The position numbers and the translations under genes are program-made. Shown in pieces: positions 618 to 11,483 of a stretch of 11,483 nucleotides of DNA (within the stretch, counting starts at the first letter, position 1; each line of letters starts with the position of its first letter). Source of the DNA: Chitinophagaceae bacterium (GTDB taxonomy: Bacteria; Bacteroidota; Bacteroidia; Chitinophagales; Chitinophagaceae); NCBI GenBank assembly GCA_003456175.1, contig DMPB01000057.1, positions 9,074-20,556 of the forward strand, in the 5' to 3' direction. Under the pieces are notes generated by a model. That model saw nothing but the letters and a program-made list of their open reading frames with translations, had not been told where the DNA came from and did no database searches.

Positions 618-1631
618 ATGATGCGATTTGCATTGGTTGGTTGCGGAAAAATTGGAGAGCGACATGCGAAATACATTCACGAATTCGCATCGTTGGTGGC
701 ATTGTGCGATACAGCAACAGATGCATTACAAACATTTGCACATAAATATCCGCAAGCAACTACTTTCACAGATTTTACTACAATGCTTACGCAAATAGAT
801 GCCGATGTAGTATCTATTTGTACACCGAATGGCGAACATGCTAATCAGGCGCTGGCAGCGTTAGAATCAGGCTTTCATGTGTTGGTAGAAAAACCCATGG
901 CCATACATAGCGCCGATGCTAAGCTAATGATAGCTACAGCAGAAAGGGTTGGTAGAAAGCTGTTTGTAGTAAAACAAAATAGATTTAACCCACCAGTAGT
1001 AGCGGTAAAAAATGCACTCGAAAGTGGTACGCTTGGAAAAATTTTGAGTGTGCAAGTCAACTGCTTTTGGAATAGAAATGAAGCCTACTACAACAATAGC
1101 TGGCGCGGTTCGCAACAATTAGATGGTGGCACTTTGTACACACAATTTAGTCATTTTATTGATTTAATTTATTGGTTAGCAGGCCCTATGCAAGAAGTGA
1201 AGGCGTTTACAAATAATGCACAGCATCAGGGTGTTATTGATTTTGAAGATCAGGGTGTGGTATGTTTTAATACCAATAGCGGTGCGTTAGGTACCATACA
1301 CTTTACAGTAAATGCTTACGCAAAAAATATGGAAGGTAGTATTGCCCTTTTCTGTGAAAAAGGTACTGTAAAAATTGGTGGCCAATATTTAAACGAACTT
1401 GAGTATCAAAGTATCGATAATTTTGTATTTGAAAATTTACCCATTGGTAATGGCCCTAACAATTATGGTGCATACGTAGGTAGTATGAGCAATCACGATG
1501 TACTTTACAAAACATTAGTAACACAGTTTCATCAACCACCGGCTATTATTGCTGGAGCCGATGCATTACATAGTGTAATTGCTATTGAAAAAATTTATGC
1601 AGCGGCAACGTATCAAAAGCATTGCTTATGA
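618..1631 (+). CDS. Gfo/Idh/MocA-family NAD(P)-dependent sugar oxidoreductase, WlbA-like
   Basis: This 337-residue protein has an N-terminal Rossmann fold with the dinucleotide loop GCGKIG (residues 8-13), the family's catalytic-lysine motif EKP (Lys92), then QNRFNPPV (120-127). The C-terminal dimerisation/substrate domain carries the D-GGTLYTQFSHFIDL segment, with Asp169 and His179 in positions typical of the active site. WlbA/WbpB relatives oxidise C3 of UDP-N-acetylglucosaminuronate on the way to 2,3-diamino sugars of surface polysaccharide; length and the segments around Lys92 and His179 fit that group. The following hexapeptide acyltransferase (4-base ATGA overlap) is the partner expected for such a pathway, but the aminotransferase that normally acts between them is not in the window. 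The start is ATG at 618 or the adjacent ATG at 621; no Shine-Dalgarno is seen, as usual for Bacteroidota. Family is certain; the exact substrate is inferred. Confidence 0.9.
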   Translation: MMRFALVGCGKIGERHAKYIHEFASLVALCDTATDALQTFAHKYPQATTFTDFTTMLTQIDADVVSICTPNGEHANQALAALESGFHVLVEKPMAIHSADAKLMIATAERVGRKLFVVKQNRFNPPVVAVKNALESGTLGKILSVQVNCFWNRNEAYYNNSWRGSQQLDGGTLYTQFSHFIDLIYWLAGPMQEVKAFTNNAQHQGVIDFEDQGVVCFNTNSGALGTIHFTVNAYAKNMEGSIALFCEKGTVKIGGQYLNELEYQSIDNFVFENLPIGNGPNNYGAYVGSMSNHDVLYKTLVTQFHQPPAIIAGADALHSVIAIEKIYAAATYQKHCL

Positions 1632-2092
1632 GCATACAATATTCTAATGTAAGTATACACGAATCGGTACAGCATGGTGAGCATGTTACTGTTGTAATGC
1701 CAAGTAATGTATATGGTTGTACGCTTGGGAATCATGTTTTCGTTGGGCCATTCTGCGAAATACAAAAAAATGTAACCATCGGCGATTATACACGTATTCA
1801 AAGCCACAGCTTTATCTGCGAATTAGTAACCATCGGTAGCCATTGTTTTATTGGTCATGGAGTTATGTTTATTAACGATACGTTTAGTGAAGGTGGCCCT
1901 GCTAGAGGCAATAAAAATTTATGGAAAAAAACAACCATAGGTAATCATGTGAGTATTGGTAGTAATGCTACCATATTGCCGGTAGATATTTGCGATGGTA
2001 CTGTTATTGGTGCTGGTGCTGTAGTAACTAAATCTATAACAGTGCCCGGTGTGTACGCTGGTAATCCTGCTAAGTTGTTGCGTAAGTTGTAG
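1628..2092 (+). CDS. Left-handed beta-helix (hexapeptide repeat) N-acyltransferase, WlbB/WbpD-like
   Basis: The 154-residue product consists almost wholly of hexapeptide repeats ([IV]-G-x4 turns such as IGDYTR, IGSHCF, IGNHVS, IGSNAT, IGAGAV), the LbH fold of trimeric acetyl-CoA-dependent transferases. The segment GHGVMFINDTF (76-86) corresponds to the WbpD/WlbB active-site strand with its conserved Asn (here Asn83), and the C-terminus YAGNPAKLLRKL is the standard end of the family. Family members acetylate the 3-amino group of a UDP-amino-sugar uronate; by position this enzyme would act on a product derived from the preceding oxidoreductase. I chose ATG 1628, which overlaps the previous stop as ATGA, over the in-frame TTG at 1622. 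It is the last gene of the operon, and no GC-rich terminator follows, only a short AT-rich convergent gap. Confidence 0.88.
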   Translation: MSIQYSNVSIHESVQHGEHVTVVMPSNVYGCTLGNHVFVGPFCEIQKNVTIGDYTRIQSHSFICELVTIGSHCFIGHGVMFINDTFSEGGPARGNKNLWKKTTIGNHVSIGSNATILPVDICDGTVIGAGAVVTKSITVPGVYAGNPAKLLRKL

Positions 2093-2110
2093 GTAATGAT
2101 ATTGTTTTCA

Positions 2111-2122
2111 TTTACCGTAAGG
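2111..2122 (-). repeat. CCTTRCGGYAAA word, copy 1 (exact CCTTACGGTAAA)
   Basis: Exact copy on the minus strand (TTTACCGTAAGG on plus), in the 56-base gap between the convergent acyltransferase and barrel genes. It is followed on the minus strand by TG, matching the longer form CCTTRCGGYAAATG. An AT-rich palindrome ATACATATGTAT (2124-2135) lies beside it. Confidence 0.8.
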
Positions 2123-2148
2123 AATACATATGTATAATTTTCAGTGTA

Positions 2149-2907
2149 TTATAATTGAAAGAATACGCCCGTGGTAAGCGTACCTGCACCTGTTCTATTA
2201 TTACCCAAACTTTTATCGCTTTGTAGTATCGTAAGGCCAACATTACCACCTCCTGAAATAAATACTTCCCATTGCTTGAATTTGTAACCAATAGTACCGC
2301 CACCTTGTATACCTAACGCATAAGGATTAACACGTGGTTGAATATCTTCTTCGTTGTCGAATACTACAGCATAGGGTAAAAGTGGTTGTGTGTACTGAGC
2401 ATCGTAATACACTTTTGAATTGCCTTTTGAAGTGTTGCGTGCATAGGTTAAAATACCAAAGTAAGGGCCTGCGTTAAAAGTTACACTCCAGTGCTTGCGG
2501 TTAACAATGTGATATTTTGCTAGTGCTGCTACTTCAATGTAATGTAGCACTACTTTGTTATCGAAACGTGTGAACACATACTCGGGTACTTGCACGCCTG
2601 CAGGTATAAAACTTTCGAAACCTACAGTTCTAATTTTTTGGTCGCCATTTTTTTGTCCGCCCTGCGTAGCATAATTGATTTCGCCTTGTAACGATAATAA
2701 TTCACTAATGCGATAGTCGGTAATGATACCGAAATATGGCCCCATGATGCTGCTGTAGCCATAGGCTTGTGAATTATCATTGCCACTCGGATCTTGCAAA
2801 TTAGGCAAACTAATGCCACCCTTTACACCAATTCGCCAGCGGTGTTGTGCCTGTATTTGGGCAACGGTAATGATACTAAGTAGAAGTGTTACATAAAGCC
2901 TGATCAT
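2149..2907 (-). CDS. PorT-family outer-membrane beta-barrel protein
   Basis: This 252-residue protein begins with a clear signal peptide (hydrophobic LYVTLLLSIITVAQIQAQ, cleavage likely after AQA-Q near residue 20) and continues as alternating hydrophobic/polar beta strands. The first strand, WRIGVKGGISLPNL, is characteristic of the Bacteroidota OMP_b-brl_2 / PorT-type barrel; further strands include GPYFGIITDYRISELLSLQGEI and AALAKYHIV, and the chain ends in an aromatic-rich strand TTGVFFQL. Proteins of this group sit in the outer membrane; most have no assigned function, so the PorT label should not be read as proof of a role in the type IX secretion machine. It is convergent with the sugar operon and divergent from the giant T9SS-exported protein. 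I saw no promoter matching the Bacteroidota consensus upstream. Confidence 0.85.
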   Translation of the reverse strand: MIRLYVTLLLSIITVAQIQAQHRWRIGVKGGISLPNLQDPSGNDNSQAYGYSSIMGPYFGIITDYRISELLSLQGEINYATQGGQKNGDQKIRTVGFESFIPAGVQVPEYVFTRFDNKVVLHYIEVAALAKYHIVNRKHWSVTFNAGPYFGILTYARNTSKGNSKVYYDAQYTQPLLPYAVVFDNEEDIQPRVNPYALGIQGGGTIGYKFKQWEVFISGGGNVGLTILQSDKSLGNNRTGAGTLTTGVFFQL

Positions 2908-3162
2908 ACGACCAATTTTGGCTCAAGATACAATATTTAGGCTGCTCGAAGCTTACTTATAGCTGATTTTGAGCATAAGTAGCCATTGTTGTAAAAGACA
3001 GTGTGATGTACCTATAAGACTAAAAAGGGCAATTCTGATCAACAAACTCTGTGAAATGGTTCAATTTTATGTTTCAATATCCGAATAACCATATCATTTA
3101 AACCAATATCATGAAACACAATAATCTATCCTGTCTATTGAGTATTGCTCTAACGTAAGTAA

Positions 3163-3185
3163 TAAGGTGGTATTAAGCCACCTTA
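3163..3185 (+). repeat. Hairpin TAAGGTGG / CCACCTTA upstream of the giant gene
   Basis: A perfect 8-bp inverted repeat (3163-3170 with 3178-3185) encloses a 7-base loop. Its right arm runs straight into a CCTTACGGTAAA copy (3181-3192), so the 5' half of that word is part of the stem. It has no T-tract on the plus side, so it is not a standard terminator; if transcribed it would lie about 85 bases upstream of the start codon at 3270. Confidence 0.5.
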
Positions 3186-3192
3186 CGGTAAA
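3181..3192 (+). repeat. CCTTRCGGYAAA word, copy 2 (exact)
   Basis: Exact plus-strand copy in the leader region of the giant secreted-protein gene. Its CCTTA is the outer part of the right arm of the 3163-3185 hairpin. It lacks the trailing TG. Confidence 0.8.
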
Positions 3193-3269
3193 ACACACCG
3201 CTAAGTGTTTGTGTGTATTGAAATAACCATATCCAAATCCTTTGGCGTAAGCCACTAATCCTCCTTTCT

Positions 3270-6200
3270 ATGAAACCGCATCTTCACATTCATCCTTGGC
3301 TACATGCGAAGCTTGTAGTACAAATCCGAAAAAGTTGTTGGTTACTTGGTATGTATCTTTTATTGGTTGTGCAAAGTGCTGCTGCTGCCGATGGTAGCGA
3401 TATTAGCAGGTTGTATAACCACTTGTTTAGTAGTAGCATGCTACAACAACAGTATGCTCATATGCTGCAATTATACCATGTACCTACCACTTTAGGTAAG
3501 TATTTATTACCCGATGGAACATTACCTAGCCACATGCAAGGTAGTTTCAATGCTCAGGGCTATCGGTTAGCAGCTCAACGTGCCGATGGCAAACTTCGTT
3601 TTGAACAAGTAAGCAATACACCAACAAGTACTGCGGTAGAAAATAATTGTAACGATGGTTGGGATAGTCGTTTTGGCATTAACAATGGTGCCATTGGTTC
3701 TTTATTAGCAGTTGCAGTAGATGGTTCAGGTAATGTATATGTAGGAGGTAGTTTCTCAATTGCAGGTAGTGTTGTAGCCAACAATATTGCTAAATGGAAT
3801 GGCGTAACATGGGAACCACTCGGGGCACAACAAACCATTAATGGTAACGGTGTTAACGGTACTGTAATGGCTATTGCTGCAAGTGGTAGCAAAGTATATG
3901 TAGGTGGTGCATTTAGTATTGCCTACAACAGCATGGCAGTGCAGGTAAGAGCCAACAAAATTGCCGTTTGGGATGGTGTACAGTGGGCAACTTTAGGTAC
4001 CGATGCTACCAATGGTAACGGTGTGAATGGTTTGGTAAATGCCATTGCAGTGAGTGGAAATAAAGTGTTTGTAGGTGGTATATTTACGCAAGTATATAAT
4101 AATGCCAATGCTGCTATCACCGCCAATAACATTGCTGTTTGGAATGGTACTAGCTGGGGTGTTTTAGGTGCTACCGGAACTGCCAACGGTGTGAACGGAG
4201 CAGTGAATGCCCTTGCGGTAAATGGTAATACACTTTGGGTAGGCGGTGCCTTTCGTCAGGCATATCAATCTGGTACAACCTTACAAGTAAATAATATTGT
4301 TGCTTGGAGTGGCACAGCATGGAACCGCTTGGGCACAGGTAATACGCTTACTGGCAACGGCGTGAGTGATATTGTAAATACCATTGCTATTGGTAGTAAT
4401 GGTAAAGTATATGTGGGTGGTAACTTCACTACAGCTTATAATGCTACAGGTGCTGCTGTTACAACCAACTATATTGCTTGTTGGAATGGTAGCTCATGGA
4501 GTGCTCTAGGTACTGGTACCACTGCTACTGGTAATGGTGTTAACAATGCTGTAAAAACAATTGTAGTAGCCGATAGTTTAGTACATGCCGCCGGCGAATT
4601 TACCAATACCTACTGTGGTGTTGCTACATATAACAGACAGCGTATCGCAAGTTGGAATGGTACTACATGGTTGCCCATGGGTGGTGCACAACAAAATGGT
4701 GCCACTGCTGGCATTAACGCTATGTGTGTTAGAAATAGTGAGTTGTTTTTAGTGGGTAATTTTTCTGGAGTGGTAGCAAGTAACGGGCAAACTATTGCAG
4801 CTGGTAAAATTGCAGTTTGGCGTAATAACAGTTGGGACCACGTAGATGCTAATATTCATAATCTTGGTGGTTATGGTTTAAATGGTACTATATACACCGT
4901 AGCTGTTAAAAACAATATCGTATATGTAGGTGGTGAATTTTCAATGGCATATAACAGCAGTAATACAGTGCAAGTGAACAATATTGCCATGTGGGATGGT
5001 GCTCAATGGAAGCCAATTGGTAATGGTGCTAATGGAACTGTTAATACTATTGCTATTCATAATAACGATGTATATGCAGGCGGCTGGTTTAGCAGCGTGT
5101 ACAACACCAACAATCAACAAGTGGTTGCTAATTATATAGCTTGTTGGAATGGTTCTACATGGAGTGCTCTCGGTAGTTCTAATTCATTTCTTGGTAATGG
5201 CGTGAATGGTAATGTTAATACCATAGTTTCTTATGGTAATAATCTCATTGTAGGTGGCAGCTTTTCTAATGCTTACAGTAGTGCAACTAATAACCTTACG
5301 GTAAATAATATTGCTATTTGGAATGGTACAACTTGGCAACGCTTCTGCGGTAACGATGCTGGTAATGGTGTAAATGGTGAAGTGAAACAAGTATTGGTAT
5401 CTAACAACAATGTTTATGTTGCTGGTGCATTTACTACCGCACTAAATGCAAGTAATACTGTTGTAGCCAATCGTATCGCAATGTGGAATGGTACTACCTG
5501 GATTAGCTTTGGTAAGGGTGTTAATGGTACTGCAAATAGCGTTGCGGTTGTGGGCGATAAAGTATATGTAGGCGGTAATTTTTTAAATGCTTCTAATACT
5601 GATAATACAACCGTTAGTTGTAGCAAAATTGCTATGTGGAACGGCTCAGTATGGCAACCACTAGGCGATGCTAGTTTAAACGGATTAAATGGCAATGTTA
5701 TTAGTATGAGTGCCATGGGTAATAACGTATATGTGGGTGGTAACTTCACTACTGCATACGATGTTGCCTCGGCGGTAACTGTGAATCGCATTGCAGTATG
5801 GACTGGCGAAAAATGGACTACTCTTTCTAATGGAGCTAATGCCACAGTCAACAGTATTGTAGCTGTTAATAATCGTGTACACGTTGGTGGTGCATTTAAT
5901 ACAATGGGTTGTAAAATAAGTGCAGCTTATGCCTTGTATTACGAGCCCATAATTTGGCGTGGTGTACAAAGTAACCAATGGAGCGATGCTCGTAACTGGA
6001 GCCCCAACGCAGTACCAGATAGTAATAGTTATGTAATGATTCCTGATACTGCAAATGCTAACGAGCCTGTTATCTCACAATATGCATTTGCATATAATAT
6101 TGCTATTGGCGCAGCTAGAACATTAACGATTAATAATAACGCTTCCCTTACGGTAAAAGGTGTGAAACTGTATAACGATGGTGTTGTAAGAGGTGAAGGT

Positions 6201-8111
6201 TATCTAATGATGAATGCCAGTTTCCCTCAAATGATAACCGGCGTTGGTACAGTACAGAATATTGCAATCAACAATACTGAAAATGTTACCGTACAGTCAG
6301 ATGATACGTTGATAGTAACTGGTAATTACAAACCAATTGCAGGTAGCTTATACGTAAGAGCCAATATAACTTTTACCAGTACTAGTAGTATTGCTAACAC
6401 AAATATTACCGATTACATTAAAGGCAATGTTGTTACAGAACAAGCCATACCAGCAGCCCCAGCACGCCGATACTTGTTTGTGGCAAGTCCTGTACAAGCA
6501 CGTATTGATAGTAGTTGGCAACAAAGCATACACATAACAGGCGAAATTGGTACTTGTGGTACTATTACCGCCAATGGCTTCGATGGTAGTGTAAGTGGTG
6601 CTCCAAGTATGTTAACTTACAATAGTAATGCACTTTTAGGTACACGTTGGCAGTCTGTAGCGAACACCAATAGAACTAGTATACAACCCACAGTTGGGTA
6701 CAAATTATTGGTACGTGGTCATCGTAACGAAGGCTGTACTTTACTAAGCGGTACTAATGTGGCAGCATCGGCGGTAACTTTAAAAGCAGTAGGCACACTT
6801 GCAATGGGCAATGTTGCAGTAACCTTACAACCCAACGATTTCAACTTAGTAGGTAACCCATACATAAGTGCTATTGATTTCAATACTGTTGCTGCACAAA
6901 ATAGTCAACATATTTTTGCGGCTTATTGGATTCAGTATCCGCAGAACAAACCTGGTATTTACACAGTGTACAACGCTGGTACCATGCTTAATAAACCTAG
7001 TGATGTAAGCAATACTAATATTCTTCCTGTTGGGCAGGCATTTACCGTAAGGACAAAAAACACCACAACAAGTATTAGTAATTTCTTTACCGAAAATAAT
7101 AAAGCTAATAGCCTTACGGCAAATAACAACGCACCTGTATGGCAAGGTTTTATAAGAGTTGGGCTACATACTGCTAGTAACGAAGTATTAGACGAAATGG
7201 TAATTCGTTTTAGTAACGATAACACAGTACGTGGTAACGTTATTAATAATTACGATGCACCTGCCATGCAAGAAGCTAACTATCGCATTGCAAGTAAGAA
7301 GCAACAACAAGCAATGAGTATTCAAACACGTGATGCTAGCTATGCGATAGATACAGTAACATTAAATGTGGTAACACTCACACCAGATATTTATATTTTA
7401 AATTTTAGTGATATACAGTTGCCGGCTAATGGTGCATTGTTAATTGATCGTTTCACTAGAACAGAAACAATTGTTACCAATAACATGCAGTATCGTTATA
7501 CAGTTACCAATAATGTAGCGAGCCAGGCCGAAGACAGATTTCAATTAGTATTCCGTAGTGCTAGTGTACTGCCTGTAACATTTACAAGTATCAGTGCAGA
7601 ACGCCAACAAGCAGGTGCTTTAGTAACATGGAGCTTACCCAGCGATGATGATACTAAAACGTACGAAGTACAACGCAGTAACGATGCTCGCAACTATAAT
7701 ACTGTTGGTGTAGTAGCTGCTAATAATAGTCGTGTTGCTGTAAGCTATCAATGGAAAGATATAACGCCCATACAAGGCAAAGTGTACTATCGTATTAAAG
7801 CAGTAGCGCAGAACGATAAAACTACTTTGAGTGCAGTTGTAATGGTACAACAAGTACAACAAAATATAGTATTGCAGTTATATCCCAATCCGGTACAACA
7901 TACGTTGCAGGTAAGTTTTACTAAGCCTATCAACAACAACGTACAAGTAGTGGTGGTGAATGCTAATGGTGCACAGGTAATGATGTTGCCGACAGTGCAG
8001 GTAGCTAATCAGTTGCAGTTGCCAGTAGCCACATTACCGGCCGGGGCATATCATTTGCAAATACAATTGCCCGATGGTACAACTGCAAGTGGCATGTTTG
8101 TAAAGCAATAA
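3270..8111 (+). CDS. Giant secreted protein: 14-unit propeller-type repeat region, FN3-like domain, T9SS type A sorting domain
   Basis: The 1613-residue product starts with a signal peptide that has a long n-region (basic ...QIRKS) and a hydrophobic core LLGMYLLLVV before SAAAA, with cleavage near residue 40. Residues about 138-893 are 13 complete and one partial copies of a roughly 50-residue unit: NGxVxxIAV, VYVGGxFxxAYN, then NxIAxWNGxxW-x-x-LG. This recalls Rax2/DUF5122/Kelch-type beta-propeller blades. From 894 a WRGVQSNQWSDARNW segment opens a beta-rich region common in Bacteroidota surface proteins, with a FNLVGNPY motif near 1194. An FN3-like domain (LPVTF ... VTWS ... YEVQRS ... YYRIKA) follows at about 1434-1525, and residues 1529-1613 are the T9SS type A sorting domain with the LYPNPV motif and a GMFVKQ end. 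The protein is therefore probably exported across the outer membrane and anchored or released; its ligand is unknown. It is Asn/Thr-rich with little charge. ATG 3270 precedes the whole signal; Met28 is a weaker alternative. Transcription ends at the hairpin at 8134-8182. Confidence 0.92.
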   Translation: MKPHLHIHPWLHAKLVVQIRKSCWLLGMYLLLVVQSAAAADGSDISRLYNHLFSSSMLQQQYAHMLQLYHVPTTLGKYLLPDGTLPSHMQGSFNAQGYRLAAQRADGKLRFEQVSNTPTSTAVENNCNDGWDSRFGINNGAIGSLLAVAVDGSGNVYVGGSFSIAGSVVANNIAKWNGVTWEPLGAQQTINGNGVNGTVMAIAASGSKVYVGGAFSIAYNSMAVQVRANKIAVWDGVQWATLGTDATNGNGVNGLVNAIAVSGNKVFVGGIFTQVYNNANAAITANNIAVWNGTSWGVLGATGTANGVNGAVNALAVNGNTLWVGGAFRQAYQSGTTLQVNNIVAWSGTAWNRLGTGNTLTGNGVSDIVNTIAIGSNGKVYVGGNFTTAYNATGAAVTTNYIACWNGSSWSALGTGTTATGNGVNNAVKTIVVADSLVHAAGEFTNTYCGVATYNRQRIASWNGTTWLPMGGAQQNGATAGINAMCVRNSELFLVGNFSGVVASNGQTIAAGKIAVWRNNSWDHVDANIHNLGGYGLNGTIYTVAVKNNIVYVGGEFSMAYNSSNTVQVNNIAMWDGAQWKPIGNGANGTVNTIAIHNNDVYAGGWFSSVYNTNNQQVVANYIACWNGSTWSALGSSNSFLGNGVNGNVNTIVSYGNNLIVGGSFSNAYSSATNNLTVNNIAIWNGTTWQRFCGNDAGNGVNGEVKQVLVSNNNVYVAGAFTTALNASNTVVANRIAMWNGTTWISFGKGVNGTANSVAVVGDKVYVGGNFLNASNTDNTTVSCSKIAMWNGSVWQPLGDASLNGLNGNVISMSAMGNNVYVGGNFTTAYDVASAVTVNRIAVWTGEKWTTLSNGANATVNSIVAVNNRVHVGGAFNTMGCKISAAYALYYEPIIWRGVQSNQWSDARNWSPNAVPDSNSYVMIPDTANANEPVISQYAFAYNIAIGAARTLTINNNASLTVKGVKLYNDGVVRGEGYLMMNASFPQMITGVGTVQNIAINNTENVTVQSDDTLIVTGNYKPIAGSLYVRANITFTSTSSIANTNITDYIKGNVVTEQAIPAAPARRYLFVASPVQARIDSSWQQSIHITGEIGTCGTITANGFDGSVSGAPSMLTYNSNALLGTRWQSVANTNRTSIQPTVGYKLLVRGHRNEGCTLLSGTNVAASAVTLKAVGTLAMGNVAVTLQPNDFNLVGNPYISAIDFNTVAAQNSQHIFAAYWIQYPQNKPGIYTVYNAGTMLNKPSDVSNTNILPVGQAFTVRTKNTTTSISNFFTENNKANSLTANNNAPVWQGFIRVGLHTASNEVLDEMVIRFSNDNTVRGNVINNYDAPAMQEANYRIASKKQQQAMSIQTRDASYAIDTVTLNVVTLTPDIYILNFSDIQLPANGALLIDRFTRTETIVTNNMQYRYTVTNNVASQAEDRFQLVFRSASVLPVTFTSISAERQQAGALVTWSLPSDDDTKTYEVQRSNDARNYNTVGVVAANNSRVAVSYQWKDITPIQGKVYYRIKAVAQNDKTTLSAVVMVQQVQQNIVLQLYPNPVQHTLQVSFTKPINNNVQVVVVNANGAQVMMLPTVQVANQLQLPVATLPAGAYHLQIQLPDGTTASGMFVKQ
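4211..4222 (+). repeat. CCTTRCGGYAAA word, copy 3 (CCTTGCGGTAAA)
   Basis: One-transition variant inside propeller unit 4 of the giant gene, read as xxC-CTT-GCG-GTA-AAT (A-L-A-V-N). It continues into TG, matching the 14-base form. The aligned position of other units (IAV) uses different codons, so the word was not spread by repeat duplication. Confidence 0.7.
5294..5305 (+). repeat. CCTTRCGGYAAA word, copy 4 (exact)
   Basis: Exact plus-strand copy in propeller unit 10, read as xxC-CTT-ACG-GTA-AAT (N-L-T-V-N). It lies at a different place in the repeat unit from copy 3. Confidence 0.8.
6146..6157 (+). repeat. CCTTRCGGYAAA word, copy 5 (exact)
   Basis: Exact plus-strand copy in the beta-rich region after the propeller repeats, read as xxC-CTT-ACG-GTA-AAA (S-L-T-V-K), in the same frame as copies 3, 4 and 7. 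Confidence 0.8.
7041..7052 (-). repeat. CCTTRCGGYAAA word, copy 6 (exact, opposite orientation)
   Basis: Exact minus-strand copy within the giant gene, read on plus as TTT-ACC-GTA-AGG (F-T-V-R). It carries the trailing TG of the 14-base form. It forms an inverted pair with copy 7, 59 bases downstream. Confidence 0.8.
7112..7123 (+). repeat. CCTTRCGGYAAA word, copy 7 (CCTTACGGCAAA)
   Basis: One-transition variant in the giant gene, read as xxC-CTT-ACG-GCA-AAT (S-L-T-A-N). It is inverted relative to copy 6 at 7041-7052. Confidence 0.7.
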
Positions 8112-8133
8112 CAGTAAGGTTTTGTTGATGTTT

Positions 8134-8182
8134 ATAACAAAAGCTATGGGGCGGCCGCAGGCCGCCCCATAGCTTTTGTTAT
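8134..8182. terminator. Bidirectional intrinsic terminator, perfect 23-bp stem
   Basis: Positions 8134-8156 and 8160-8182 are exact reverse complements around a 3-base GCA loop. The GC-rich heart (GGGGCGGCC, containing a GCGGCCGC site at 8151-8158) is flanked by AAAAGC on one side and GCTTTT on the other, giving a T-tract on both strands. It sits between the stop of the giant gene (8111) and the convergent stop of the M23 gene (8195), so it can end transcription from both sides. The right arm's TTTTGTTATC (8174-8183) is repeated in tandem at 8184-8193. Confidence 0.92.
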
Positions 8183-8193
8183 CTTTTGTTATC
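8174..8193 (+). repeat. Tandem 10-base repeat TTTTGTTATC x2
   Basis: The outer right arm of the terminator stem ends in TTTTGTTATC and the same ten bases follow at once (8184-8193), ending just before the M23 stop codon. A related TTTTGTT at 8120-8126 could also pair with AACAAAA (8136-8142) of the left arm. The duplication lengthens the T-rich tail for plus-strand transcripts. Confidence 0.6.
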
Positions 8194-8194
8194 A

Positions 8195-9166
8195 CTAATC
8201 TAAACTTTGGTTAGCTGCTGCAGCCACTTTTAACAACCGATCAAATTGCTCTGGCGATAAATCGTTATAAAAAAAGTAAATCGGATCTACGGGCTTACCA
8301 TTCTTGTGAACTTCGTAATGGCAGTGTGGCCCCGTGCTCTTACCCGTGCTACCAACATAACCAATTACTTCGCCTCGTTTTATTGTTTGTCCGGCACGTG
8401 CTTTAATACGTACCATATGGCCATATAATGTTTCATATCCATAGCCATGGTTAATTACAACATGGTTACCATAGCCGCTACTGTTATAGCCAGCCTCTTT
8501 CACTCTGCCATCGGCGGTAGCATAAATAGGTGTGCCTTGTGGTGCAGTGAAATCGAGGCCTGCATGAAATTTGGTTACCTTGTACACGGGGTCGATGCGG
8601 TAACCGAAACCACTAGCAATACGATTTAGATTTTTATTACTCACAGGCTGAATAGCAGGAATGGCCTTTAATAACCGTTCTTTGTTTTTCACCATACCAG
8701 CAATTTCGCTGTAACTCTTTTCTTGATAAGCAATACGTTTTGAAAGTGTATTCAATTGCTGTGTCATACTGGCTACCATATCGTTCTCAGAAAGTGTAGC
8801 AAGCAAGGCTAGTTCCTTGTTTTTTTCCATGGCTACTAAACGAGCACTATCTGGTATCGGATCGGCTTCAAAAACACTGCGATACACTTCGTTATCACGC
8901 TTCGAAAGCTCATCCATTTGTGCGGTAAGTGCATCTACCTGCTTGCGCAAAATGGTATAATTCTGTTGTAGCTCTTTATTTTGTTGTTTTAGCAACGTTT
9001 CTTGAGGCCGTTCTATGTATTGAAATGCAATGGCTACAATAATAATTGCCGTTACCAATGCTGCTGCTATAAAGCCAAACACACGCAATAATTTTACCCG
9101 AAAGGGTACTTCGAGCTTCTCGTAGCGGAGCGTGTGGGTATTGTAATAATATTTTACTTTTTTCAT
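8195..9166 (-). CDS. Membrane-anchored M23-family (LytM-type) metallopeptidase with coiled coil
   Basis: The 323-residue protein has a short basic cytoplasmic N-terminus (MKKVKYYYNTHTLRYEKL), one transmembrane helix at about residues 27-49, a coiled coil rich in Glu/Gln/Lys over about 56-165, and a C-terminal M23 peptidase domain (about 180-300). All zinc/catalytic residues are present: His201 and Asp205 (FHAGLDF), His250 (LYGHM) and HCH at 281-283. Such enzymes cleave peptide cross-bridges of peptidoglycan from the periplasmic side; with intact residues it is more likely an active hydrolase than an EnvC/NlpD-like activator. I start it at ATG 9166, not at the in-frame ATG 9205. The extra 13 codons would translate a hairpin built from two repeat words, while MKKVKYYYNTHTLRYEKL is the usual family start. 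It is divergent from alaS, an arrangement often seen in this phylum. Confidence 0.92.
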   Translation of the reverse strand: MKKVKYYYNTHTLRYEKLEVPFRVKLLRVFGFIAAALVTAIIIVAIAFQYIERPQETLLKQQNKELQQNYTILRKQVDALTAQMDELSKRDNEVYRSVFEADPIPDSARLVAMEKNKELALLATLSENDMVASMTQQLNTLSKRIAYQEKSYSEIAGMVKNKERLLKAIPAIQPVSNKNLNRIASGFGYRIDPVYKVTKFHAGLDFTAPQGTPIYATADGRVKEAGYNSSGYGNHVVINHGYGYETLYGHMVRIKARAGQTIKRGEVIGYVGSTGKSTGPHCHYEVHKNGKPVDPIYFFYNDLSPEQFDRLLKVAAAANQSLD

Positions 9167-9179
9167 AGCCTTATAAACA

Positions 9180-9191
9180 TTTACCGTAAGG
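9180..9191 (-). repeat. CCTTRCGGYAAA word, copy 8 (exact)
   Basis: Exact minus-strand copy, with trailing TG, in the M23/alaS divergent region. It is the arm of the 9180-9206 hairpin nearest the M23 start codon. Confidence 0.8.
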
Positions 9192-9194
9192 TAG

Positions 9195-9206
9195 CCTTGC
9201 GGCAAA
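9195..9206 (+). repeat. CCTTRCGGYAAA word, copy 9 (CCTTGCGGCAAA)
   Basis: Variant with both transitions, trailing TG present, forming the other arm of the hairpin with copy 8. Further TTGCGG/CCGCAA pieces follow at 9253-9268 and 9280-9285. Confidence 0.7.
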
Positions 9207-9352: not shown

Positions 9353-11483
9353 ATGCTTACCGCAGCCCAAATACGTCAGCAGTTTTTAGATTTCTTCGCC
9401 AGCAAGCAGCACGATGTGGTGCCCAGTGCTCCGATAGTGGTTAAAAACGATCCAACATTGCTTTTTACCAATGCTGGTATGAACCAGTTTAAAGATTATT
9501 TTTTGGGTAATAAAGTGCCCGCCAATCCACGTATTGCTGACACCCAAAAATGCTTGCGAGTAAGCGGAAAGCATAACGATTTAGAAGAAGTAGGTGTAGA
9601 TACTTACCACCATACCATGTTTGAAATGCTGGGCAACTGGAGCTTTGGTAACTATTTTAAAGCTGAAGCAATTGCATGGAGCTGGGAATTATTAACGGAG
9701 GTATACCAACTCGATAAAGATCGACTGTATGTAACCATTTTTGAAGGCGATGAAAAGGAAGGCTTGCCTCGCGATGAAGAAGCCTACAATGAGTGGAAAA
9801 AATGGATTGCAGAAGACCGTATTTTACTGGGCAACAAAAAAGATAATTTCTGGGAAATGGGCGATACCGGCCCTTGTGGCCCATGTACCGAAATACATGT
9901 TGATTGTCGTACCCCTGAAGAAAGAGCCGCTGTTGCAGGGAAAGATTTAGTAAATAATGATCATCCGCAGGTAATTGAAATTTGGAATAATGTATTTATT
10001 CAGTTTAACCGATTGAAAGATGGTTCGTTACAGCAATTGCCCGCAAAGCACGTAGATACTGGTATGGGTTTTGAACGTTTGGTACGTGTATTACAAGGCA
10101 AAACAAGTAATTACGATACCGATGTATTCTCAGGTACTATCAAAGCTATTGAAGGTATCACCAGCCAAACATATACTGCTGGCGATGATAAGCAAAGCGT
10201 TGCTTTTCGCGTATTAGCCGATCATATTAGAGCTATCAGTTTTACCATTGCCGATGGTCAATTGCCTTCTAATACTGGTGCCGGTTATGTTATCAGAAGA
10301 ATTTTAAGAAGAGCTGTTCGCTATTACTATTCGTATCTCGATTATAAGCAACCGTTATTATTTCAATTGGTACCTGTGCTTGCGGCACAATTCGAACGTG
10401 TGTTCCCAGAATTGCATCAACAATTAGATTTTGTAAGTAAAGTGGTTAAAGAAGAAGAAGATGCTTTCTTACGAACACTTGAAAAAGGGTTGAAGCGTAT
10501 CAACGATATACTTGCAACTGAAAAAGCGAGTGGGTCTGGTAGTATTAATGGCAAAGAGGCTTTTGAACTATTCGACACTTACGGTTTTCCGATAGATTTA
10601 ACTCGATTGATTGCACAAGAGAATAATCTTCAGGTAGATGAGCCAGGGTTTGAAGCTGAAATGGCACAGCAAAAAGCACGCAGTCGTGCTGCCACCGCTA
10701 TCGACACAGAAGACTGGGTAACCGTGAACGATGTGGCTAATACCAGTTTTGTTGGGTATCATACCACTGAAACCACTACCAAAGTGGCGAAGTACAGAAA
10801 AGTAAAGGCTAAAGGAAAAGAAGCCTATCAAATTGTGTTAGAAGCAACACCTTTTTATGCTGAAAGCGGTGGCCAAGTTGGCGATAGTGGCACGCTTACT
10901 ATTGATGGTGAAACAATAACCATTTATGATACCAAGAAAGAAAACAACTTGTTTATTCACTTTGCTGACGCTATTCCTGCCGTTCTTAGTGGCAGTGTAA
11001 TTGCACAAGTGAATACTACCAGAAGGCATGAAATTACAGTACACCATAGTGCAACGCATTTAATGCATGCCGCTTTACGTAAAGTACTAGGTACACACGT
11101 GGCACAAAAAGGTAGTTTGGTGAATGAGGAACATTTGCGTTTCGATTTTTCGCATTTTGCAAAACTTACCTCTGAAGAAATTGCACAAGTAGAGGCTATT
11201 GTGAATACAAAGATTCGTGAGAACGTTCCGGTTGTAATTAAAGAAATGAGTAAAGACGATGCCATTGCTATGGGTGCTATGGCGTTGTTCGGAGAAAAAT
11301 ATGCAGATACAGTTCGTGTAGTAGTGATAGATCCCAATTATAGTATTGAACTGTGTGGTGGTACACACGTAGGCAATACCGGCGAACTTGGCTTTTTTGC
11401 TATTAAGCACGAAACTGCAGTAGCTGCAGGTGTACGTAGGGTAGAAGCTGTTTGTGGTGCCGCTGCCGAGCAATACATTATTG
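9353..11483 (+). CDS. alaS: Alanine--tRNA ligase (3' end outside window)
   Basis: An open frame of 710 codons runs from ATG 9353 off the window end. It encodes the class II synthetase that charges tRNA-Ala with alanine in the cytoplasm. The N-terminal aminoacylation domain begins TAAQIRQQFLDFFASKQH and contains TLLFTNAGMNQFKDYFLG, the motif 2 region HHTMFEMLGNWSFGNYF (residues 86-102), GDTGPCGPCTEIH and motif 3 GMGFERL (237-243). The editing domain has its zinc-binding residues His565 and His569 (HSATH) and Cys668 and His672 (CGGTH), so mischarged Ser/Gly clearance should be intact. About 160-170 C-terminal residues (the C-Ala oligomerisation region) would be missing, judged by the usual length of about 870-880. 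No frameshift is visible, and codon use is ordinary for the window. A consensus promoter lies at 9253-9282. Confidence 0.97.
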   Translation, partial: MLTAAQIRQQFLDFFASKQHDVVPSAPIVVKNDPTLLFTNAGMNQFKDYFLGNKVPANPRIADTQKCLRVSGKHNDLEEVGVDTYHHTMFEMLGNWSFGNYFKAEAIAWSWELLTEVYQLDKDRLYVTIFEGDEKEGLPRDEEAYNEWKKWIAEDRILLGNKKDNFWEMGDTGPCGPCTEIHVDCRTPEERAAVAGKDLVNNDHPQVIEIWNNVFIQFNRLKDGSLQQLPAKHVDTGMGFERLVRVLQGKTSNYDTDVFSGTIKAIEGITSQTYTAGDDKQSVAFRVLADHIRAISFTIADGQLPSNTGAGYVIRRILRRAVRYYYSYLDYKQPLLFQLVPVLAAQFERVFPELHQQLDFVSKVVKEEEDAFLRTLEKGLKRINDILATEKASGSGSINGKEAFELFDTYGFPIDLTRLIAQENNLQVDEPGFEAEMAQQKARSRAATAIDTEDWVTVNDVANTSFVGYHTTETTTKVAKYRKVKAKGKEAYQIVLEATPFYAESGGQVGDSGTLTIDGETITIYDTKKENNLFIHFADAIPAVLSGSVIAQVNTTRRHEITVHHSATHLMHAALRKVLGTHVAQKGSLVNEEHLRFDFSHFAKLTSEEIAQVEAIVNTKIRENVPVVIKEMSKDDAIAMGAMALFGEKYADTVRVVVIDPNYSIELCGGTHVGNTGELGFFAIKHETAVAAGVRRVEAVCGAAAEQYII

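Follow-up and report, generated by a model that had tools for sequence, protein, structure and literature searches.

The DNA examined here is an 11,483-nucleotide stretch (the window) from a Chitinophagaceae bacterium of the Bacteroidota (GCA_003456175.1, contig DMPB01000057.1, positions 9,074 to 20,556 of the forward strand), and the element in question is a short word, CCTTRCGGYAAA, that is found in the window on both strands. The same word is iterated throughout the genome from which the window derives, where it may serve as a self-recognition signal of the DNA-uptake-sequence kind. The copies in the window, together with the gene that hosts five of them, are as follows.

The word in the window

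2111..2122, minus strand: CCTTACGGTAAA followed by TG; intergenic, flanked by the hexapeptide transferase and outer-membrane barrel genes
3181..3192, plus strand: CCTTACGGTAAA without TG; intergenic, upstream of the 1613-residue protein gene
3270..8111, plus strand: gene for a 1613-residue protein rich in repeats; its domain matches are a Rax2 propeller (PF12768) and a secretion-system C-terminal sorting domain (PF18962)
4211..4222, plus strand: CCTTGCGGTAAA followed by TG; in the 1613-residue protein gene, translated ALAVN
5294..5305, plus strand: CCTTACGGTAAA; in the same gene, translated NLTVN; by eye it substitutes for residues of the protein repeat, with no insertion
6146..6157, plus strand: CCTTACGGTAAA; in the same gene, translated SLTVK
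7041..7052, minus strand: CCTTACGGTAAA followed by TG; antisense in the same gene, translated FTVR
7112..7123, plus strand: CCTTACGGCAAA; in the same gene, translated SLTAN; forms a -+ pair with the 7041 copy, 59 bp apart
9180..9191, minus strand: CCTTACGGTAAA followed by TG; in the gap preceding the M23 peptidase gene; 3 bp from the 9195 copy, with which it makes a -+ pair
9195..9206, plus strand: CCTTGCGGCAAA followed by TG; in the same gap as the 9180 copy

A pattern count over both strands returned nine copies, six exact and three variant, and all lie where an earlier reading of the window (the sequence-only reading) had placed them. The accompanying claim that this number exceeds chance is supported by 200 dinucleotide-preserving shuffles of the window, which contained a mean of 0.01 copies and a maximum of 1. 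Inspection of the sequence likewise agrees that five of the nine copies carry the trailing TG, and the division of the copies between three intergenic gaps (four copies) and a single gene (five copies) was also described correctly. The copies at 9180 and 9195 precede the probable ATG of the M23 peptidase gene but would fall inside its frame if a TTG start at 9205 is used. The PF18962 sorting domain of the 1613-residue protein marks the type IX secretion system of Bacteroidota. A long GC-rich inverted repeat (GGGGCGGCCGC...) at 8112-8194 lies between the ends of two convergent genes and is probably a bidirectional terminator; similar repeats are found near words elsewhere.

Abundance and restriction to one species

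The genome containing the window (G000; 3.12 Mb in 213 contigs, 81% complete) holds 1,879 copies of the word, 931 in forward and 948 in reverse orientation, whereas the reversed word, used as a control, has no copy in either orientation (0 + 0). This corresponds to one copy per 1.7 kb on average, or a density of approximately 0.6/kb. The proposal that the word is a genome-wide element is therefore borne out, as the count is far from the expected value and the word is not confined to a single locus. In a 490-kb sample of this genome, the main 12-mer form is 1481-fold above the order-3 expectation. Each of the 14 10-mers and 12-mers listed at the top of the ranking is a fragment or variant of the word.

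The other genomes of the family present a different picture. The word has between 0 and 17 copies in each of 243 other family genomes, which is near the level of chance or of the reversed control. The one other species of the genus that was compared (G041, here the genus-mate) contains 5 copies; it is a distant relative, as 51 orthologues at 45% identity or above have a mean identity of 66%. No comparable iterated word was found in 511 kb of the genus-mate, nor in the 15 usable stretches (at least 14 kb) obtained from 20 family genomes at one stretch each, the remaining five being too short. A scan of GTDB 220, from which the window's genome was possibly left out, for a close inverted pair of the word returned 12 stretches on 11 contigs, none of which is an array: 11 of the 12 contain no further word and one (L061) contains one more. 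The window's genome contains 20 close inverted pairs of the main form. On one uncultured Clostridia contig, two copies of a single inverted repeat (L052, 5175-5220, and L053, 1167-1212), which account for two of the 12 stretches, have the word in both arms, with no other word nearby and so without an array. Among the viruses of IMG/VR there are no inverted word pairs, and a search with the 15-mer returned 47 stretches with one match each, compared with 88 for the reversed control, indicating no enrichment. In the data compared, the word is confined to one species.

A sequencing-adaptor or assembly artefact is unlikely because copies sit in frame in genes that are conserved in the genus-mate and have variants compatible with the encoded protein. 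A full-text search of PubMed Central, which leaves most subscription journals outside, returned, among the listings covered, no paper describing this word or any uptake sequence from Bacteroidota.

Anatomy of the word

The full unit is approximately ACCTTRCGGYAAATG and is about 15 bases long. In a consensus built from 269 intergenic copies, in which the core CC TT R C GG Y AAA is fixed by the selection of the copies aligned, T is present at position -1 in 57%, A at position 0 in 78%, T at position 13 in 93% and G at position 14 in 81%. Weak preferences extend into the flanks, with C at +21 in 46% of intergenic copies (40% of coding copies) and T at -12 in 45% of intergenic copies (not seen in coding copies).

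The sequence-only reading had taken positions 5 and 9 to be symmetric partners in a near-palindrome TTRC-S-GYAA. This pairing is ruled out by a mutual information of only 0.018 between the two positions over 321 sites, compared with 0.263 between position 9 and position 0, the base just before the 12-mer. The bases at positions 0 and 9 covary as A-T or G-C (G..C 80, G..T 43, A..C 8, A..T 350; Fisher 1e-49), and do so in intergenic copies alone (G..C 23, G..T 13, A..C 2, A..T 207; Fisher 5e-21) and in copies without a neighbor within 150 bp. In coding frame 1, in which T at position 9 would create a stop codon, 29 of 32 copies have G..C. Because positions 0 and 9 are the coupled pair, the dyad is ACC-TTRC-GGT rather than TTRC-S-GYAA, and the word consists of this dyad and an asymmetric AAATG tail, the opposite strand reading CATTT-ACC-GYAA-GGT. 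The A-T/G-C coupling suggests that the word is read by a symmetric (dimeric) protein surface or as a small hairpin. Forms that differ from the word at one of ten positions are few, with 26 off-by-one copies and 519 exact copies (both counted with T at position 13) and 4 for the backward control. In one stretch of the genome (L039, in the part from 1629), intact copies have beside them AACCTTACGCAAATG, a variant that is shorter than the core by one base.

Placement in genes, gaps and AT-rich DNA

The placement of the word was examined in 79 stretches that total 977 kb (31% of the window's genome) and contain 618 copies, with genes called by a simple hexamer script that assigned 89-90% of the samples as coding. 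While coding DNA makes up 90.3% of the bases, only 332 copies lie in genes; 275 are intergenic and 11 cross gene edges, giving densities of 3.08/kb between genes and 0.40/kb inside them, a 7.7-fold difference. Convergent gaps are the richest (6.56/kb), followed by tandem gaps (3.49/kb) and divergent gaps (1.90/kb). In tandem gaps the word lies a median of 30 bp from the upstream stop codon, with hardly any bias of orientation (same in 58 cases, opposite in 71). A main role as a transcription terminator was considered and rejected, as the words lack a T run, and separate GC-rich hairpins with T runs adjoin several of them (by eye).

Internal copies are carried by 250 of the 817 genes of at least 100 codons. 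One reading frame leads, with 170 of the 332 in-gene copies, and mostly encodes L-T/A-V/A-N/K. Of 16 coding copies that were aligned to genes of the genus-mate, 9 are in gapless alignments, 3 have one single-residue gap, 3 are in unaligned gene ends and 1 lies over an 8-residue gap; none of the 16 shows a clean insertion of 4-5 residues at the word. In one case the genus-mate encodes the identical peptide, CLTAKEF, with different codons. Since these alignments show replacement and no clean insertion, the alignable coding copies arose by substitution. An insertion element is consequently rejected for these copies, and the intergenic sequence of the genus-mate is too diverged to align.

The word is scarce in AT-rich DNA, which was used as a proxy for acquired DNA. 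Among 299 bins of 2.5 kb, the 9 with a GC fraction below 0.33 hold no word and the 12 between 0.33 and 0.36 hold 7, while the other GC classes average 1.27-1.88. In the first sample, the word is missing for longest (14.4 kb, GC fraction 0.294) at the start of contig C6, in a stretch that encodes a phage-type integrase (PF00589, PF13102) close to its end. At normal GC there are word-free stretches as well, of 5-9 kb (for example, L089 and L036). In L050, the start of a gene that we take to be ffh-like (MFGNLQERLESAFKNLKG...) is repeated about 3 kb apart (5391-6722 and 9659-9799) with word-free DNA between the two occurrences, possibly an integrated element that targets this gene.

Orientation and spacing

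The two orientations of the word are balanced within individual stretches of up to 20 kb, and are even under-dispersed (chi2 49.5, 78 degrees of freedom, lower-tail P 0.005). At short range, up to about 750 bp, avoidance is much stronger between copies in the same orientation than between copies in opposite orientation: pairs less than 750 bp apart comprise 61 in the same and 184 in opposite orientation, and the difference holds for pairs at 150-750 bp (48 same, 114 opposite; P 2e-7). Both kinds of pair are similarly scarce at 750-1000 bp (28 same, 24 opposite). Relative to a uniform expectation, same-orientation pairs amount to 0.32-0.61 up to 1 kb, 0.80 at 1-1.5 kb and at least 0.90 beyond, and opposite pairs at 60-750 bp to 0.58-1.71 depending on the class. 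Among pairs closer than 60 bp, the +- arrangement is in 7-fold excess (34, compared with 8 in the -+ arrangement). Adjacent copies at least 150 bp apart are in the same orientation in 178 cases and in opposite orientation in 280.

The spacing of copies along a single strand is more regular than random, with coefficients of variation of 0.73 and 0.75, compared with 0.98 when both strands are pooled. Because this regularity exists along one strand and not for all copies together, each strand carries its own separately spaced array. The dependence of spacing on orientation in turn suggests a reader of the word that acts on a single strand or has a direction.

A control was provided by the known uptake signal sequence (USS) of Pasteurellaceae, which was sought in 321 genomes of the class to which genome G244 belongs and forms an array in one of them (G496; AAAGTGCGGT, 535 + 528 copies in about 2.0 Mb, approximately 0.5/kb). 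The pair analysis of this genome used a small sample, the first 100 places listed. Among these places all 7 pairs closer than 150 bp are +-. Pairs at 150-1000 bp number 17 same and 21 opposite, compared with 76 and 138 in the window's genome (P 0.28), a sample too small to tell the two apart. Neighbors in the control number 48 same and 50 opposite, compared with 191 and 349 in the window's genome (Fisher P 0.012), so in this small sample the alternation of neighbors is not shared.

Uptake and recombination machinery

The window's genome encodes ComEC (PF03772 match, 697-residue open frame), as does the genus-mate, with 40% identity over 702 aligned positions. No pilus secretin (PF00263) was found in either the window's genome, at its 81% completeness, or the genus-mate, and no search for minor pilins was made; as no secretin was found, the known pilus route is unsupported. 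PMC8459023 describes a transformation system in the bacteroidete Riemerella for which no pilus homologues were found, and in which two neighboring proteins are essential, one a surface protein bearing choice-of-anchor J and DUF5689 domains, the other an outer-membrane protein. According to the same paper, transformation of Riemerella also needs ComEC, DprA, ComF, RecA, a helix-hairpin-helix protein and a DUF1343 protein.

In the genus-mate, a DUF5689 protein is encoded beside an 862-residue protein that is taken as an outer-membrane barrel, its only Pfam match being a TonB-plug below the curated cut-off. From its neighbor gene, this barrel-type protein is presumed to match the outer-membrane protein of Riemerella. 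A counterpart in the window's genome has 76% identity over residues 4-283 and is truncated at a contig end (C4). A search of the window's genome for the DUF5689 partner gene found none; its assembly breaks inside the barrel-type gene. Because the barrel gene is cut at a contig end and the DUF5689 partner is missing from the assembled sequence, a likely receptor locus may lie in an assembly gap. Choice-of-anchor J matches number 2 in the window's genome and 7 in the genus-mate. In the genus-mate (L071), a gene of the endonuclease/exonuclease/phosphatase family (PF19580; 4267-5349) adjoins the barrel/DUF5689 pair (1595-4183) and has no match in the available sequence of the window's genome. On contig C184 of the window's genome (L190), an N run is flanked on both sides by the same NESAEVN-coding sequence and looks like an unclosed scaffold overlap; other N runs may be similar.

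The window's genome also encodes a PD-(D/E)XK protein (PDDEXK_1; 1061-residue open frame) that by eye contains a helicase as well, and its counterpart in the genus-mate is 46% identical over 762 aligned positions.

A proposed self-recognition signal and its alternatives

The abundance of the word, its strand balance, intergenic excess, scarcity in acquired-looking DNA, origin by substitution and short inverted pairs together match the published profile of uptake sequences. It is proposed, with slightly better than even confidence, that this species-specific word serves for self-recognition in the manner of a DNA uptake sequence, with strand-specific action; this explanation is preferred on account of its short inverted pairs, its local balance of strands and a density like that of USS. 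The presence of ComEC and of the barrel-type protein also counts in its favor. Among the analogies offered by the sequence-only reading, uptake sequences thus fit best. The chromosome signals of the KOPS (FtsK-orienting polar sequence) or matS type do not fit because orientation is not coherent across the stretches sampled (up to 20 kb). The copies are spread over the sampled contigs, and the balance and alternation of their orientation at short range speak against a replication-arm signal.

We infer uptake as the process, along with its receptor and polarity. First, a receptor or translocation step in natural transformation would bind ACCTTRCGGYAAATG strictly, such that DNA bearing the word would be preferentially taken up and recombined. 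Through this uptake bias, substitutions would have built up the word in the chromosome at sites where genes tolerate it, to about one copy per 1.7 kb on average. The step would be strand-specific, with each orientation covering the DNA on one side; consequently, a further copy with the same orientation less than about 750 bp away would add little, while a copy in the opposite orientation would still add cover. Finally, the coupled positions 0 and 9 would be read by a symmetric dimeric surface or as a small hairpin.

According to PMC2346458, PMC3630211 and PMC7371117, the DNA uptake sequence (DUS) of Neisseriaceae is on a similar 12-mer scale, with about one copy per 1-2 kb on both strands and in both genes and gaps; DUS and its dialects also form inverted pairs and are depleted from acquired islands, and overlapping dyad-symmetric DUS pairs have been taken as a hint of recognition by a dimer. 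The word differs from DUS in its unrelated sequence and host, in that no secretin was found (and hence no sign of a pilus/ComP route), in its fewer near-misses and in its strand-specific spacing. USS has a similar array density and similar short +- pairs, as measured in the control genome, and an intergenic excess is described in PMC1939737 and PMC7811141. The latter source also describes uptake sequences as rarer in newly acquired and in constrained coding DNA. The word differs from USS in sequence and in the alternation of its neighbors.

Several observations weigh against an uptake signal. The share of near-misses is below the 21% off-by-one share given for kingDUS in PMC3630211. The spacing depends on orientation, unlike known uptake sequences, USS included, which act independently of orientation in the tests described in PMC1939737, and the alternation of neighbors is not found in the USS control. 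The genus-mate encodes ComEC and a similar barrel, yet it does not have the word array. The absence of a detected secretin and of the DUF5689 partner gene point in the same direction.

The main alternative is a Chi-like signal, in which a nuclease of the AddAB/RecBCD type that enters from a broken end reads the word on one strand only and switches to repair, so that each strand would require copies of its own, while word-free DNA is degraded. Chi signals resemble the word in their strand-specific logic and in marking self, and reading on one strand or in one direction is predicted by a Chi-like resection signal as well as by a polar uptake step. A Chi-like signal would predict strand-specific spacing with independent strands, as seen in pairs closer than 750 bp, and scarcity in foreign-looking DNA; the alternation of neighbors that USS does not share is also in its favor, as is the presence of the PD-(D/E)XK protein. 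Known Chi sites, however, are shorter and biased to one replication strand, whereas the word is longer, locally balanced in orientation and enriched between genes. The pile-up of +- pairs below 60 bp is not explained, and the genus-mate has the PD-(D/E)XK counterpart and yet only 5 copies of the word. A Chi-like role is considered unlikely, although it is taken seriously.

It is less probable still that the word is the binding site of an abundant chromosome-structuring or regulatory DNA-binding dimer, directly selected site by site. The ACC-N4-GGT dyad with its coupled ends, the scarcity of near-misses, and the weak extra preferences at -12, -1 and +21, which are about one helical turn apart, would all suit a dimer. 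Against this, 250 of the 817 genes of at least 100 codons carry a copy inside, often with amino acid differences from the genus-mate, which would be costly if gaps would serve; divergent gaps, where promoters lie, are the poorest intergenic class; and strand-specific repulsion is not predicted.

A methylation-linked word like the cyanobacterial HIP1 (highly iterated palindrome 1), generated by biased mismatch repair around a methylated core, is a distinctly improbable explanation. The R/Y degeneracy of the word does resemble that of methyltransferase sites. According to PMC4390886, HIP sites are likewise lineage-specific, highly iterated and correlated with orphan methyltransferases, but HIP1 is an 8-bp palindrome, about half as long as the word. 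The analogy to HIP1 in the sequence-only reading fits poorly, because the word is asymmetric, with AAATG on one side only, is about 15 bases long and is enriched between genes; neither this enrichment nor orientation-dependent spacing is predicted. A dispersed mobile element of the REP/RAYT (repetitive extragenic palindrome and its associated tyrosine transposase) or IS200 type, a small hairpin spread by transposition, is very hard to credit and already mostly refuted: CATTT-ACC-GYAA-GGT, the sequence of the complementary strand, could be drawn as a short hairpin that has a foot on its 5' side, like those of REP elements, and two nearly identical 60-bp inverted word pairs with about the same 34-bp spacer and different flanks (L045, 7099 and 12253) may be a small duplicated or mobile unit, but no Y1 transposase (PF01797) was found in the 81% complete genome, no conserved sequence is seen beyond the weak flanks, and alignable coding copies replace residues rather than insert them.

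Implications

No case of self-marking by a genome is clearer than that of uptake words, which the literature cited ties to two proteobacterial families and to pilus machinery. The word described here may tentatively, at somewhat less than even confidence, be regarded as a third, independently evolved language of DNA self-recognition and the first in Bacteroidota, read by a pilus-free outer-membrane machine one strand at a time from two interleaved, separately spaced arrays. In this reading the word would have a direction, while its ends, with the coupled positions 0 and 9, would be read symmetrically. This would mean that a self-marking language can emerge with a different uptake machine and within a rather short evolutionary branch, as the array is absent from the genus-mate and no secretin was detected. 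The strand-specific spacing and the coupled positions give testable predictions on how the word is read, and the word offers a ready marker of foreign islands in this lineage.

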